59,104 bases of DNA from Truepera sp. bin119 (GTDB taxonomy: Bacteria > Deinococcota > Deinococci > Deinococcales > Trueperaceae), in the NCBI GenBank assembly GCA_002239005.1, contig MPNL01000017.1, positions 1-59,104 on the forward strand, given 5' to 3'. Positions 51,062 through 58,375 of the stretch are shown here, one piece after another. The notes beneath the pieces were generated by a model. The model worked only from the letters and a program-made list of their open reading frames with translations, did not search any database and had not been told where the DNA came from. Made by a program: the position numbers and the translations under genes. Positions within the stretch are counted from its first letter, which is position 1. Every line of letters begins with the position of its first letter.

Positions 51062-52075
51062 CTACCAATCCTCTATGGTGCGCCTAGTTGCCTCATCCTC
51101 GAGTTTGGCGTAGATGGTGGTGGTGGTAATGTTTTTATGTCGAAGGTGCTTTTGTACCTGATTCAAGTCCCGCGTCTGGCGATACATACGGGTTCCGGCA
51201 CTGTGCCGTAGCCCGTGAATACCTTTGCCTTCATACTCCACGCCTGCCGCCTGACAGAGGGTGCGGAAGCGCTGCTCGATCCGTTTATCTCCCCAAGGGA
51301 GAATGAAGCCGTCGCGGTTCTTGCGACGGCGCCGGACGTCCCGGCTCGACCGAAGGGCTTGTAACGCCTCTAGCAGCCGCTTACTAACACCTACGCTCTC
51401 TATATATCCTCCCTTACCCCTCACACGTACCAGCCGGACCTCTGATCTAAGGTCCTCCCAACGGAGCCCTGCGATCTCGTGCCGCCGGAGGCCAGCGTGG
51501 CTTCCTAAGAGGATCACGACCCGATCAGCGGGATGCTCGGCTCCCTCGAGAAGCCTTTCAATTTCCTTTAGGGTGTACGGTTGCCGCTTCTCCCAAGCGG
51601 GAACGGGGTCGCTGCGACTCCTTAGGCCCTTGAACGGGTCGACGTTAGTAGCCTCAGACCAAGCCAAGGCGTAGTAGAGGGTACGAGCCGCTGCGAGTTT
51701 CACGTTCACAGTGGCGGGGCTCCGGTATCTAGGGGCGGCTTGGCCATCGGTCTTATCGATGCGATGCGGGATCTGCTCAAGTTCTTCGAGATAGAGACTA
51801 CCTGCGCGGCGACCTGGCCGGAGCAGGTTCACACCCTGCCAGTGCTCGAGAAGGTCTCTAATACCTCGCTTATAGGTATTAAGGGTGTGGCGGCTAAGCT
51901 TGCTGCCCTTCGGACTAGAGTGAACTAGGTAGGCCTCAACGAGTCCCCATAGCTCTTCAGGATCGCGGCTGTTGGCGGCAGCCACGGCCCGACGACGCAG
52001 GGCTTCGTCACTGAGGTCGAGCCAACTTCGGTGCCTCTCAAGAGCGCTCGCATCATAGAGTTGCAGGCTGGTCAT
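51062..52075 (-). CDS. Xer-type tyrosine recombinase
   Basis: Site-specific recombinase of about 337 residues. N-terminal SAM-like DNA-binding domain (LSRHTLNTYKRGIRDLLEHW) and catalytic domain with the full set: Arg in GLRRHEIAGLRWEDL, Lys in VRGKGGY, HGLRHSAGTRM (His-x-x-Arg), HLRHKNITTTTIYAKL (His/Lys and nucleophile Tyr). It resembles the single Xer-like recombinase I associate with deinococci and could resolve chromosome dimers. ATG 52075 gives MTSLQLYD; GAGGAG is just upstream. TTG 52090 is an alternative that would run into the dif-like site. No phage genes surround it. Confidence 0.85.
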   Translation of the reverse strand: MTSLQLYDASALERHRSWLDLSDEALRRRAVAAANSRDPEELWGLVEAYLVHSSPKGSKLSRHTLNTYKRGIRDLLEHWQGVNLLRPGRRAGSLYLEELEQIPHRIDKTDGQAAPRYRSPATVNVKLAAARTLYYALAWSEATNVDPFKGLRSRSDPVPAWEKRQPYTLKEIERLLEGAEHPADRVVILLGSHAGLRRHEIAGLRWEDLRSEVRLVRVRGKGGYIESVGVSKRLLEALQALRSSRDVRRRRKNRDGFILPWGDKRIEQRFRTLCQAAGVEYEGKGIHGLRHSAGTRMYRQTRDLNQVQKHLRHKNITTTTIYAKLEDEATRRTIEDW

Positions 52076-52089
52076 AGCTCCTCTTATCA

Positions 52090-52117
52090 ATTTCCAATAA
52101 TAACCCTTATTGGAAGT
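52090..52117 (-). other. dif-like recombination site
   Basis: A 28-bp site in textbook Xer layout. On the minus strand the left arm is ACTTCCAATAA, the spacer GGGTTA, the right arm TTATTGGAAAT: two 11-bp arms with a 6-bp centre. The inner nine bases of each arm are perfectly inverted. The left arm agrees with the Bacillus dif arm as I recall it at about nine of 11 positions and the right begins TTAT as expected. It lies directly upstream of the recombinase gene, like difSL beside xerS in streptococci. Confidence 0.68.
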
Positions 52118-52582
52118 TAGTGCACAAAAAGCCCACGGTATGTGACATTTCCCTCAGTGTCAGACTGACGAACCCCAGCCACCTTGTGGCTTGACAGATT
52201 ATCCATCACCGCTAGGTCGCCAGGACGTAGCTTTGGAGCCAGTATCCGCTCCACATAGGCTTTGAAGCTAGCACCGTTGATCGCCCCAGCCAGCACCATC
52301 GGTGCCATCCAACCAGCTAGGCGCAGGCCTGCCACAAATGTGGTCGTCTCCCAGCGACCGAACGGCACCGAGGCGTGCAAGCGTTGCCCCGCTAAGCTGC
52401 GCCCCCGCAGCCTGGCCATGTTGGTTGGTCTTGGCTCCGGTTTCGTCAAGGAAGATCAACCGCTGGGGCGTCATCTGTGACTGCTCCTGGTGCCAGCGGT
52501 GGATGAGCTTGATGGCACTGGCGGCCTCACGGGCCGAGGCTCCCGCTTGCACGGCTTCGATAATGCGCCGACGCAGATCCAT
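52117..52582 (-). pseudogene. IS630-family transposase remnant
   Basis: Start ATG 52582 gives the N-terminal helix-turn-helix MDLRRRIIEAVQAGASAREA, then a large deletion jumps to the DDE region RLIFLDETGAKTNQ. A frameshift follows, and the frame at 52449-52117 carries NMARLRGRSLAGQRLHASVP, TTTFVAGLR and LAVMDNLSSHKVAGVR before homology ends near 52170. Intact IS630 transposases continue about 100 residues with the last catalytic Glu. This one is inactive, ending next to the dif-like site. Confidence 0.85.
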
Positions 52583-52621
52583 AGAGTGTCCATGCCTCGC
52601 GCATCTGGATAGATGATTAAA

Positions 52622-52656
52622 GAAATAATTCACGTTATTTATACTCGTGAACTTTC
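52622..52656 (-). repeat. 35-bp repeat, copy 3 (inverted)
   Basis: Reverse-oriented copy, three mismatches and one gap from copy 2 when reversed. It sits between the IS630 remnant and the birA stop, only nine bases past birA. Together with copy 2 it forms inverted ends around the recombinase and transposase remnant. Confidence 0.78.
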
Positions 52657-52664
52657 GACCTCAG

Positions 52665-53360
52665 TCACCACGCAATCACAGACCCGCCACAGATTCTCTG
52701 ACAGCCTCCCCCCAAATCACAAAGTCGTAAACATCCCGAACCATCAATGCCCATTGCCCGTCCCGTGACCTCGCACTCTCCAGCCCTAACTCTCACCACC
52801 CTTCCCGTGAGAAGATCATAGGGCGCAAAGAACTCAGGGAGTCCTCTCCCCTCTAACTCGCGCAACCTCACCAGGGCACGACCAACTGATATCTGAACCA
52901 GTCCATGCACCGAGTCCAGATCCAAAACTGCTAGTGATGAACTACCCGTGGGACCTGAATCCCCAACGTTAACCCCTACTCCAATGATGAGGTGTCCACG
53001 ATGAAGTTCACAGAGGATACCAGCAAGCTTGCGTCCCCTAAGGAAGAGATCGTTCGGCCACTTCACCTTAACAGGCATCCCTTCCACCGCAAGCGCCTCA
53101 GCAAGAACAACCCCCACAACAATCGGAATGAGTGCTAACTCCACGTCCCCTGACACCCGAACAGCGAATGACTGATAGCTCCCACCCCTGGGACTCTGCC
53201 AGAAGCGTCCCAACCTACCACGCCCCACTGTTTGCTGCTCGGCAAGGACCGCCAAACCGTGAACATTGCGGCCCCGATCTAGGTAGCGTCGCAGTCGGTC
53301 CTGCGTCGAATCGAGCAACCCGTGGCGCTCCACCCGCCACAGCACAGAGTCAGCCAGCAC
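52665..53360 (-). CDS. birA: biotin--[acetyl-CoA-carboxylase] ligase
   Basis: Attaches biotin to the carboxyl carrier protein of acetyl-CoA carboxylase. About 231 residues; ATP/biotin loop GRGRLGRFWQSPRGG, KWPNDLFLRGRKLAGILCE, GVGVNVGDSGP, and a C-terminal SH3-like domain (GRVVRVRAGECEVTGRAMGI). No N-terminal helix-turn-helix, so it is a class I, non-regulatory enzyme. GTG 53360 lies three bases after the smc stop, indicating one operon. Confidence 0.9.
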   Translation of the reverse strand: MLADSVLWRVERHGLLDSTQDRLRRYLDRGRNVHGLAVLAEQQTVGRGRLGRFWQSPRGGSYQSFAVRVSGDVELALIPIVVGVVLAEALAVEGMPVKVKWPNDLFLRGRKLAGILCELHRGHLIIGVGVNVGDSGPTGSSSLAVLDLDSVHGLVQISVGRALVRLRELEGRGLPEFFAPYDLLTGRVVRVRAGECEVTGRAMGIDGSGCLRLCDLGGGCQRICGGSVIAW

Positions 53361-53363
53361 CCG

Positions 53364-56300
53364 TCACCGCCGTAAAACCAACTCTTCATTCTTCTGAATG
53401 CTGAACAAGCGACTTACACCACCCTCGGTCGTGACCCCCGAGATCACCTCGGCAATTTCGAACGTGGCCCTCTGGTGCGTAATGAGTACGAACTGAGTTC
53501 CAGCTACAGCCAACCGCTCCACGAAGGCACAGAACCTCCCTATATTGGCCTCATCCAGGGGAGCATCGACCTCGTCAAGCACCACAATAGGGAGGCCGCT
53601 CTGCTCACCCCGGCCCCCCTGTGCTATGAGCGAGAATAAAAAAGCCAGCGCTCCCATCGTCCGTTCCCCCACCGATAGCAGGTTCAGTAACTTCGTCTTC
53701 TTCCCCGGAGGTTGGAGCATAACCTCCAGACCCGTTGGACGCCCCTCATCCCGCAGAATCCGCAAATCAGACACAGCACCAGACCCAAAGAGGGCAGTCA
53801 CATGCCGCCCAAAACTCTTCCGGAGGACCCCCACCGTCCTATCTAATCTAGCAGTGGTCTCCGTATCAACCCACTCGAGGGCTGTCTCCAACTCCTCCAC
53901 CGCCACCAGCGCAGCGTCACAGTCTGTCCTAAGAGTGCAGAGCCGGACAGATCGCTCCTCAAAGTCCACCTGTGCCCGGTGGTTTACGGGTCCGAACTCT
54001 TCCAGGCACTCCTCAACCTCAGCGAGTCTACGCCGCACCTCCCGCTCGGAAAGATCTGCCAATCTCAGACCCCCTGGATACGCAGCCATCTCATCGCAGG
54101 CCAACTCGAGGGCTGTCTCACGGCGAGCCAGCGAAAGTCGGACACCCTCCAAGTCACGGCCGGCCCGCGCCTGCTCCTCCGTGAGCCTAGCCTGTTCGGT
54201 CTCCACCGCCTCGACAGCCTTCATGGCCAAACGATGGGCCTCTTCCCATATATCCAAGTCATCTGGGAGTGCCGCAGCTGCCTCAGCAGCTGCGGCACGG
54301 CGCATTTCAACCTCCCCCTCAACCGCGACAAGATCCTCCTTAACCCGCTTAAGGTCGTCAGCGAGCATGCCACGCCGCTCTCGGTCCCGGCGCACCCGAG
54401 CCATGAGCACATGGTAAGCAGCAGTGCGCTCATGATGCAGATCCCGACCCCATCGCGCACGGTCCAACCCAGCCCGAGCACCAAGCAATTCTTCCTGGAC
54501 AGCAGAGGCTGCAGCCTCTGCCCGGTCGAGCCTTGCCATCGCCTCCACAAGCTCAGAAGCAGCGGGGGCTTCCAAGCGCTCTAGGGTGACCGAGACCCTT
54601 TCCCCTAGACTCTCAATCTGAGAAAGTTCTCGGCGCCTAGAGTGACTCGCCTCCTCTAGCGCAGCTAGCCTGACTCGTCCCTCCCCAAGAGCCTCCATGA
54701 GCGAGCGCTCCTCCTGGTCGAGTCGGGCCGCCTCCGACTCAACAGCCTCAAGTCGCCCAGTTAACTCAGCTGCCACCGCCCGCTTTTTGGCCAAGGCCGA
54801 CCTGAATCCCCTCTGTTGACCAATCAACCCACTCGACACGCCAACCCTGCCACCGGAGAGAGCACCGTGGGACTCCACCCGGTCCCCGGACAGGGTGACC
54901 AAGAGCGGTCTGGTGCCATATGCCCGGGCGAGCTCGACAGCCCCTTCAAGAGTGGTTACTATCGCCGTAGCGCCAAGGAGTTGGTCGACGAGGCTCCGGA
55001 ACCGCTCGTCAGTCTTCACCACCTCACGAGCGAGGCCGAGAACAGCCGACTCGCTAGCTAAGCTGGGGTGGCGCGGACGCCGAGCCGGCACCAAGTCCAG
55101 GGGTAGCACCGTGACCCAGCCCTTCCTACGACGCACATGCTCGATCACTCGCACACCATCATCGGCCGTTTCGACTACAACGTGCTCCACCCGTCTGCCA
55201 AGCGCTGCATCAATGGCCTGGCGGAAGCGGGGCGGAACCTCGAGGAGATCAGTCACTGACCCAATCACCCCAGGTAATCCAGAGGTAAGGGCTAGTTGGG
55301 GTCCCTTGGCGTAGCCGCGCCGCTCTCGAACTGCCCGCTCGTGCCGGGCAAGGTCGCGCTCAAGTGCCCCGGCCTCCGCCTCAGCCTCAAGTAGTGATGA
55401 ACGCAACCCAACAATCTCCTCGGACAACCTCACCCGCTCAGAGCGGACCTCCGCGAGGCGCACTGTGCGCTCCTCCAAATCCGCCCTCTCCCCTGCCATC
55501 TCGCCCTCGTCAACTATTGACTGCTCAAGGACACCACGCCTACTGCGCAGGTCGGTGAGTTGCCAGACTAACGCCTCGCGCCTAACCTCGAAGGCATTGC
55601 TGGCCTCCCTCGCAGCTTCGCAGGCACGTGCGGCCGCACTACGCTCGGCCTCAACCTCCTCTAAAGACCGCACAAGGGACGTGAGGGCCGCCTCAGCCCG
55701 CTCACAAGCTGCAGCCAACTCTGCAGCGTCGCCGGGTGGGGGATCGGGCTCATCGAGGACAAGGTCCCCCAACTGCTCACGGAGGGCTACCGCTCTCGCT
55801 TCAAGGTCCTGCCGGCGCAACTCCTCTGAGTGGAGTCGCTCCTCGCTCACCCGCAGATCTCCCCTCCTCGCCTCGGCCTCCGCGAGCGCCTTGCGCAAAG
55901 CCATCTCGACATCAGCCAATTCACCACGACGCTCGACTAACTCAGCACTCCGCAAGCGCAACCGGTCACGACGCTCCACAATGTCGCCCTGCAGTTCAAT
56001 CTCCTTAGCCCGCAACCTCCCAGCGTCATGCTCGAGTGATTCGACCCGCCGACGAACCCGGGAGTAGCCAAGCTGGAGCGCCTCGCGGCTCAACTGTTCA
56101 TGTCTCTCCGCCTCCACTGCCTCGTGCGCTAGAGCCTCAACTTGTATCTGCAGTTCTGCAATGACATCCTCAAGCCGCACTAGATGGGAACGTGCGGTGT
56201 CTAGCCTCCTCAGGGTGAGTTCGCGACGCCTAGCCAACTGCGCCACACCCGCAGCTTCCGCCGCGTAGGCCAGCAGCCGTTCAGGGTCGGCCGTGAGGAC

Positions 56301-56726
56301 CTCGCCCACCTCACCCTGACCGATCACCGCCAGAGCTCCGCGCCCGAGGCCGGTCCCCGTGAGAGCCTCCTCCACATCCATTAGCCGCGCATTGACACCA
56401 TTCAACTTAAGAGTGCTGCTACCATCGCGAAGCAGGCTCCTATAAATCCGTAACGGCCTAGCTGCAGTGTTAAGAAGCTCCAACTCGACCTCTGCCAAGC
56501 CAACACTGCGCTTGCCCACCGCGCCGTGAAAGATGAGTTCGGTTCTAATATCCGCCCTGAACGAACGGGCACGCCCACCACCTGTCACCCAGCGGAGGGC
56601 ATCGACAATATTCGACTTCCCGGAACCGTTCGGCCCAATAATAGCAGTGACGCCGGGGGAGAATTCGACGACCGTGCGGTCGCCGAAGCTCTTAAAACCA
56701 CTGATGGTGAGGCTTGCAAGCCTCAC
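53364..56726 (-). CDS. smc: chromosome segregation protein SMC
   Basis: Condensin ATPase of 1120 residues. Head half one FKSFGDRTVVEFSPGVTAIIGPNGSGKSNIVDALRWV with Walker A GPNGSGKS; two long coiled-coils; hinge around residues 490-640 (SGLPGVIGSVTDLLEVPPRF, VTVLPLDLVPARRP, LLVTLSGDRVESHGALSGGR); head half two with signature LLSVGERTMGALAFLFSLI (Val for the second Gly of LSGGE) and Walker B LPIVVLDEVDAPLDEANIGRF. GTG 56726. Cotranscribed with birA. Partners ScpA/ScpB are not in view. Confidence 0.95.
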   Translation of the reverse strand: MRLASLTISGFKSFGDRTVVEFSPGVTAIIGPNGSGKSNIVDALRWVTGGGRARSFRADIRTELIFHGAVGKRSVGLAEVELELLNTAARPLRIYRSLLRDGSSTLKLNGVNARLMDVEEALTGTGLGRGALAVIGQGEVGEVLTADPERLLAYAAEAAGVAQLARRRELTLRRLDTARSHLVRLEDVIAELQIQVEALAHEAVEAERHEQLSREALQLGYSRVRRRVESLEHDAGRLRAKEIELQGDIVERRDRLRLRSAELVERRGELADVEMALRKALAEAEARRGDLRVSEERLHSEELRRQDLEARAVALREQLGDLVLDEPDPPPGDAAELAAACERAEAALTSLVRSLEEVEAERSAAARACEAAREASNAFEVRREALVWQLTDLRSRRGVLEQSIVDEGEMAGERADLEERTVRLAEVRSERVRLSEEIVGLRSSLLEAEAEAGALERDLARHERAVRERRGYAKGPQLALTSGLPGVIGSVTDLLEVPPRFRQAIDAALGRRVEHVVVETADDGVRVIEHVRRRKGWVTVLPLDLVPARRPRHPSLASESAVLGLAREVVKTDERFRSLVDQLLGATAIVTTLEGAVELARAYGTRPLLVTLSGDRVESHGALSGGRVGVSSGLIGQQRGFRSALAKKRAVAAELTGRLEAVESEAARLDQEERSLMEALGEGRVRLAALEEASHSRRRELSQIESLGERVSVTLERLEAPAASELVEAMARLDRAEAAASAVQEELLGARAGLDRARWGRDLHHERTAAYHVLMARVRRDRERRGMLADDLKRVKEDLVAVEGEVEMRRAAAAEAAAALPDDLDIWEEAHRLAMKAVEAVETEQARLTEEQARAGRDLEGVRLSLARRETALELACDEMAAYPGGLRLADLSEREVRRRLAEVEECLEEFGPVNHRAQVDFEERSVRLCTLRTDCDAALVAVEELETALEWVDTETTARLDRTVGVLRKSFGRHVTALFGSGAVSDLRILRDEGRPTGLEVMLQPPGKKTKLLNLLSVGERTMGALAFLFSLIAQGGRGEQSGLPIVVLDEVDAPLDEANIGRFCAFVERLAVAGTQFVLITHQRATFEIAEVISGVTTEGGVSRLFSIQKNEELVLRR

Positions 56727-56834
56727 GGGGACGCCCTAGGTGGGAGACCCCATCCTTTCTCCACGAGGGGTGTACTCCAAGCTATGTTAGACGTCACACT
56801 CACAACCATCAATGTCTAGTGTACCTCCCTATAG

Positions 56835-57254
56835 TTAGGTACCGTCCTCTGTAACATCCTCTGCAGGGGCAGGCAGGGCGCTAGCAATACCACGCATCCG
56901 TTCCTGGAGCTGCCCCTGCAGCCTGCCGATACGGTCCTCGAGCTTATCCTGGAGGGAATCGAGTTGCCGCCTTAGCTTGATGATCTCCTCCACCCCAGCG
57001 AGGTTCACACCTAGCTCCTGGGTGAGTCGACGGATCTCACGCAGTTGCTCGATATCGCGCTGTGAGTAGAGGCGGGTCTTGCCCGCACTCCTGCTCGGCT
57101 CGATAAGCCCCTTCCGTTCGTAAAGCCGGAGGGTCTGGGGGTGCATGTCAACGAGTTCTGCTGCTACACTTATGACGTACAGAGGCTTATCCCTATCTAT
57201 CGAGTCGGACCTCTCCCCCACAGGGGGATCTATAGCTCTGCTGTCGTCGGTCAC
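56835..57254 (-). CDS. hspR: MerR-family heat-shock repressor HspR
   Basis: About 139 residues. After a 25-residue lead the MerR DNA-binding domain reads [20 protein letters not shown] and [20 protein letters not shown], then [20 protein letters not shown] and [11 protein letters not shown], followed by a coiled coil ([19 protein letters not shown]). This is the HspR pattern. HspR represses chaperone genes together with DnaK and is usually encoded beside dnaJ, as here (10-base gap). I saw no convincing full HAIR site (CTTGAGT-N7-ACTCAAG) upstream of dnaJ; only a degenerate half near 58244. Confidence 0.88.
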
Positions 57255-57264
57255 GCCCTCTCCC

Positions 57265-58203
57265 TCATACCGGGCTCAATCTTCGAGCCCAACTCTTGAC
57301 TGTGCGCCACAGGCCCCGCCACACGTCGAACTGGATAGTCAACACCAAGTCTCCGCCAGACAGGCCCTTCGAAGGAAAGGTCAACACTTGGCCCGCACAC
57401 ACCCCCTCTGGAATTGTGACAGACACACCAACCACCTCGACCTTCGCACCCCGTGCGGCCTCCAGTGGGGTGAGGAAAAGATCTGTGTGGAGGTCGTTGC
57501 CGACCCTGCGCACCCCCTCAGGGAGCCCGACCTGAACGGTGAACAGTGCGTCCCCTGGAGGCGTCCCAAGACCACCTAGCCCTTTCAACCGGAGCTTGAC
57601 CCCGTCACGAACACCAGCAGGAATGGTGAGGTCAACCTCTGCGGAAGCGAGTTGGCGCCGACCAGCGCAAGCCTGGCAAATCCCCCCCCCATAACCCCGA
57701 CCACGGCCACCGCAGGTCGGGCACACGCTAGGCCCCGGAACCCGCACCCGCTGCAACCCCCCATATCTTGCGAGCTCGAGTGGGATCGTAATCCCTCGAT
57801 GCCGGTCCTGGCCAGGAAGGAATCCCGAGAACCGCATAGCCCCGGTGACCGCACCGAAGAGGAAGTCAAAGACCGCGTTTCCGGTCTGCGGGACCCCTCC
57901 CCTAGCATCCCAGTCGATCCGAAGATCCGCCTCCCTGAAAATCGTCTGCCAGTCAACCGCCTGGAATGTTTCCGTACCTGGCCTCCGTCCATACCGATCG
58001 TAGCGCACCCGCGCCTCGGGATCCCGTAGGGTGGCATAGGCTGTCGAGAGCTCCTTGAAACGCTCTTCCGCCTCACTGTTCCCTGGGTTTCGATCTGGGT
58101 GATACTCGAGGGCAAGCCTGCGATAAGCCGCCCTGATCTTGTCCTGGTCGGCGTCTCGGTCGACCCCCAAGACCTCATAGGGATTGGGTTCGGTCCGGCT
58201 CAC
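57265..58203 (-). CDS. DnaJ/CbpA-like co-chaperone with half a zinc domain
   Basis: J domain at residues about 7-70 with the HPD motif ([15 protein letters not shown]), a spacer, then only two CxxCxG elements (CPTCGGRG and CQACAG), whereas full DnaJ has four. C-terminal substrate-binding region includes [31 protein letters not shown], and [13 protein letters not shown]. It stimulates DnaK, which is not in this window. Start most likely GTG 58203 ([19 protein letters not shown]); GTG 58209 is close and the frame extends to 58242. Confidence 0.85.
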
Positions 58204-58375
58204 CAGCACCAGAATAACATTTCCTGAGCGTCTCAGTAACAACCCTCAAGCACTCCGTGCCCCCCTCAGATGCTTCAGATGCTAGAGTGAGAGACAAGAG
58301 AGGCCGCCATGGTCGTGCGGGTCTAGGCCAAGTCGGAGCCAAAGCGGCGCCTGATAGCACCTTCAGGAGGTCACG

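Follow-up and report, generated by a model that had tools for sequence, protein, structure and literature searches.

Two single tyrosine recombinases that are linked to their recombination sites have been described, XerS with difSL and XerH with difH (PMC2731167, PMC5357621), and both are close points of comparison for the locus studied here. It lies in a stretch of 59,104 nucleotides from Truepera sp. bin119 (contig MPNL01000017.1; "the window" in the following) and comprises a 28-bp palindrome beside the gene of a Xer-type tyrosine recombinase; at this palindrome, the single Xer enzyme very probably resolves chromosome dimers. As in the XerS/difSL systems of streptococci and lactococci, one recombinase of similar size is found with an adjoining site at the terminus and with FtsK (PMC2731167, PMC5357621), but difSL has 31 bp with an 11-bp center and unequal arms (PMC5357621), while the site reported here has 28 bp with a 6-bp center and near-equal arms. 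The streptococcal parallel drawn in the sequence-only reading holds as an analogy (PMC2731167, PMC5357621) but not as family membership, with the window protein scoring 56.7 bits against an NCBIfam cut-off of 267 for XerS. XerH/difH of Helicobacter and Campylobacter likewise relies on a single recombinase that is usually linked to dif, but difH resembles difSL and in this differs from the present site (PMC2731167). The XerH-difH complex 5jjv matches the window protein structurally (TMq 0.59), with about 16% of the aligned residues identical; sequence similarity to this structure is confined to the catalytic domain, and no XerH family model matched.

Archaeal XerA also acts as a single recombinase on a 28-bp dif (PMC5357621), and, of the proteins with a solved structure, the archaeal XerC-like 4a8e matches the window protein best in sequence. 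Unlike archaeal XerA, however, the window protein is bacterial, comes from a genome with an FtsK-gamma domain and reaches 92.1 bits, where the XerA model requires 220. With XerC/XerD-dif of E. coli and B. subtilis the locus shares a 28-bp site of 11-6-11 layout, inner arms of the ATAA/TTAT type, location at the terminus and FtsK-gamma, but it differs in having one recombinase rather than two and nearly identical arms. XerC and XerD scores were 84.9 bits (cut-off 335) and 67.8 bits (cut-off 330), respectively, so that, judged by score, the recombinase falls outside the XerS, XerA and XerC/XerD families. No protein in any genome of the order exceeded the XerC cut-off, which is strict (only 2 of 14 control genomes pass), nor did any genome of the family, that of Truepera included, yield an XerC match at E ≤ 1e-60.

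In the open-access literature (subscription papers lay outside the search), we found neither a description of a single Xer with its site in Deinococcota nor an assignment of chromosome dimer resolution in this phylum. The results table of a large dif survey has no Deinococcota row (PMC3025954), and a study of D. radiodurans FtsK lists six candidate recombinases and mentions putative dif sites while leaving open which recombinases act (PMC9764985).

The predicted dif site and its recombinase gene

The predicted dif site, ATTTCCAATAA-TAACCC-TTATTGGAAGT, occupies positions 52090..52117 (no strand assigned). Its gene-proximal arm ATTTCCAATAA (52090..52100, plus strand) and gene-distal arm TTATTGGAAGT (52107..52117, plus strand), both predicted to bind the recombinase, are complementary at 10 of 11 positions and flank the central 6 bp TAACCC (52101..52106, plus strand), where strand exchange is predicted to occur. 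An 11-6-11 arrangement with inner ATAA/TTAT is the geometry of dif, and the site, with G+C at 8 of 28 positions, has both. Palindromy alone was dropped as evidence, since comparable palindromes arise by chance in shuffled sequence: three 11-6-11 palindromes in the window pair at 10 or more positions, where Markov-1 shuffles predict 0.76. When palindromy and the ATAA/TTAT ends were scored together, the site reached 18 of 19 and was the best in the window, with a top score of 16 among 300 shuffles and none above 15 in around 1.18 Mb sampled from three relative genomes (their own xer-adjacent sites excluded). The exact-arm pattern had no chance match across 100 shuffles of the window. This bears out the palindrome as first read from the letters. 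The site occurs once in the whole 3.2-Mb assembly, and a search allowing up to 3 mismatches returned one further match (C68:64522), with about one expected by chance.

The adjoining gene (51062..52075, minus strand) encodes a Xer-type tyrosine recombinase of 337 amino acids with Pfam Phage_integrase (PF00589) and SAM-like N-terminal (PF02899) domains. All six catalytic residues (R197, K221, H287, R290, H313 and Y322) are present, in columns that are invariant or nearly so across 42 relatives. An AlphaFold2 model (mean pLDDT 92.5) returned XerA, an integron integrase and XerH as structural matches in Foldseek. Translation most likely starts at an ATG with its first base at 52075, 14 bp from dif; were translation to begin instead at a TTG at 52090, gene and site would share one base. 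The palindrome had been thought to abut the only tyrosine recombinase gene of the window, and one such gene was indeed found there, but the two are separated by the 14-bp gap and six other PF00589 matches lie elsewhere in the assembly. None of these resembles the window recombinase, leaving one protein of its kind in this genome, and in the nearest relative, G002, its orthologue is the sole PF00589 protein. FtsK-gamma was detected in 38 of 41 genomes, including that of Truepera sp. bin119 (G000:C32, E = 5.8e-22).

On the far side of the site, positions 52117-52633 hold a degraded, single-copy transposase of the IS630 family, located between dif and birA. With this open reading frame adjoining the palindrome at 52117, the palindrome could be read as the end of the IS630 remnant, or else as the hairpin of a transcription terminator. 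We regard this reading as highly improbable: an IS630 end is refuted by the single-copy state of the 641-bp remnant stretch and by the equivalent sites that relatives carry upstream of xer, and the A+T-rich arms would form a weak terminator stem. At the far end of the remnant (52618-52645), a second, weak ATAA-N6-TTAT motif pairs at 7 of 11 positions, which is probably chance and possibly a decayed site.

Position at the terminus and conservation among relatives

A replication-terminus signal lies at 51100..52100 (no strand assigned), where GC skew turns from about +0.04 on the left of the window to -0.18 on the right, with the plus-to-minus switch at 51-52 kb. The right flank of the window consists of only 7 kb of minus-strand genes, and for this reason the relatives, in which genome-wide skew was sampled, carry more weight. 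The skew maximum lies within 1 kb of the site in both the Truepera genome and G006, 1.9 kb from it in G016 and 3.6 kb from it in G002, where skew remains below zero between about 40 kb and the end of the contig at 100 kb. In the complete genome G006, the site is 1,438,676 bp of 2,919,400 (49.3%) from dnaA, and in genomes further removed, xer modules are found 50% (G046), 53% (G038) and 51% (G056) of the way round the chromosome from dnaA. The module is thus opposite dnaA in most complete genomes examined. Two genomes are exceptions: G016, a gapped scaffold, has the module only 25% round from dnaA, and in G012, xer is at 50.0% but some 32 kb separate the nearest palindrome from the local maximum of the skew. 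The expectation that this part of the window is the replication terminus is therefore supported by both the skew switch and the position opposite dnaA in most complete genomes examined, with a dif-like 11-6-11 site at the terminus, one per chromosome. A candidate KOPS octamer, GGGNAGGG, points towards dif over away from it at 16:6 in the Truepera genome, 9:1 in G002, 35:25 in G006 and 60:43 in G012, but this polarity is weak and was rejected as evidence because many G-rich octamers behave alike.

The module adjoins a block from smc to birA with a merR-type and a dnaJ gene (52665-58242 in the window, 12.5-19.4 kb on contig C12 of G002, about 1.301-1.310 Mb in G006). In the window, this block lies on the opposite side and strand relative to both relatives, a pattern suggestive of a rearrangement of the terminus about dif.

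An origin of recombinase and site from an integrated plasmid or phage, with the palindrome as an attachment or multimer-resolution site that coincides with the skew switch by accident, appears unlikely to us. It would fit the company that the recombinase keeps in a tree of the order's Xer proteins, where the chromosomal proteins of G046 and G056 fall into clade I, whereas clade II unites the window gene with Trueperaceae-like paralogs, Deinococcus plasmid proteins and the proteins of Thermus phage Lalka; assembly contamination of about 3% would also leave room for it. Yet birA, smc, a merR-type gene and dnaJ, which flank the site on the birA side, belong to the core genes, the neighborhood is shared with G002, G006 and G016, in several genera the xer gene coincides with the skew switch, and G002 encodes no PF00589 protein besides the orthologue.

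Conservation of a chromosomal dif was assessed in group A, with the presence of ATAA-N6-TTAT in the 700 bp preceding the orthologous gene as the sole criterion for picking a site. Such a motif was found in 11 of the 14 other genomes of this group, in line with the expected conservation next to xer, and in each of them the two arms pair at 3 to 7 of the 7 outer positions. Within these 700 bp, no ATAA-N6-TTAT was detected in G007, G012 (with its closest palindrome 389 bp upstream of xer) and G021, where a contig end cuts the region. The site is the sole or best-of-few match to its own pattern in all relatives but G016, whose site departs from the pattern used, and the dif of G002 is unique in its genome. 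Of the three outcomes named in the sequence-only reading as speaking against it, namely many copies, a better dif at a skew switch elsewhere and absence from close relatives, all were checked and none was observed. While the nearest relative retains the arms (TTCCAATAA/TTATTGGAA in the Truepera genome, TTTCCAATAA/TTATGGGAAA in G002), several other genera carry CTGATAA/TTATCAG, meaning that both arms changed together. Across 30 sites at xer loci, 85.2% of arm positions pair, compared to 33-43% with slid partners, and the covariation score is 0.558 against 0.08-0.16; these 30 sites were partly selected for palindromy, which inflates pairing, so that the group A set, for which only the inner motif was required, gives the less biased picture. 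At 78 xer loci, a spacer of 6 was the most enriched, and 17 loci had palindromes with at least 10 pairs, compared to 0.9% of random regions.

The palindrome lies 14 bp from the ATG in the window, and nine of the group A relatives have it between -35 and -108; such a location would also suit an operator for the recombinase gene or for another repressor rather than a recombination site. Two genomes (G001 and G017) place the site about 600 bp upstream, though, and the dif-type 11-6-11 layout with inner ATAA/TTAT, the preferred spacer of 6 and the position at the terminus make a mere operator very unlikely. The site could serve as both operator and dif.

Related loci on other replicons and in a phage

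Beyond group A, palindromes of the same geometry and of different sequence precede xer genes in other families of the order, extending the association of site and gene by examples order-wide. They also occur on plasmids of D. peraridilitoris, D. grandis (8 kb), Deinococcus sp. AJ005 and QL22, whereas no convincing palindrome was seen upstream of the recombinases of D. radiodurans MP1 or D. grandis pDEGR-2. In G046, a 2.30-Mb and a 135-kb contig each hold one xer gene and one unique palindrome that is absent from the other contig, and this single well-resolved case suggests one module per replicon. From such cases and the tree, one might tentatively propose, at slightly less than even confidence, that much of this order of Deinococcota has no typical XerC/XerD pair and instead equips each replicon with its own recombinase and cognate palindrome, that the arms diverge fast and in step, preventing recombination between replicons, and that the chromosomal module of Trueperaceae came from the plasmid-type clade.

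Several further loci were noted along the way. In the complete 2.27-Mb genome G038, the xer gene (C1:1203782-1204828) has two in-frame stops in the matched stretch and dif is a perfect palindrome. Four members of genus g6 (L128, L130, L022 and L123) share a conserved dif-like sequence of ATAATGTCTCTTGT type 330-420 bp upstream of xer. TTGATAAG..CTTATCAAA palindromes at G019:C15:167703 and G025:C21:18562, about 2.5 kb upstream of a second xer paralog of group B, are possibly a second xer-dif module. The TTTGATAAT right before the ATG of group B paralogs was considered as a half-dif and rejected as a leaderless-type -10 promoter. The recombinase of Thermus phage Lalka27b (L173) shares 39% identity with the window protein, and a palindrome pairing at 9 of 11 positions lies 32 bp upstream of it. 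Scans of viral contigs for the arms gave matches seemingly at chance level, only one of them accompanied by a distant recombinase.

Proposed mechanism and significance

Taken together, we consider it highly likely that the palindrome is a chromosomal dif and the adjacent gene encodes the single Xer of a Trueperaceae-like dimer-resolution module that resembles XerS/difSL or XerH/difH. Monomers of one recombinase would bind the two near-identical 11-bp arms. Where homologous recombination between sister chromosomes has produced a dimer carrying two dif copies, FtsK would bring both copies together at the septum, and a recombinase tetramer would swap strands over the 6-bp center to yield two monomers. 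Binding, strand exchange, FtsK control and the role in dimer resolution are predicted from the site, its terminus location, conservation and covariation as well as from the active site and FtsK-gamma. With dif located 14 bp before the start codon, it is also plausible that the dif-bound recombinase could repress its own gene.

The linked xer-dif pair would provide a direct and testable assignment of dimer resolution in Deinococcota. Moreover, the family offers a natural series of recombinases with sites altered on both arms, which may be useful for studying DNA specificity.
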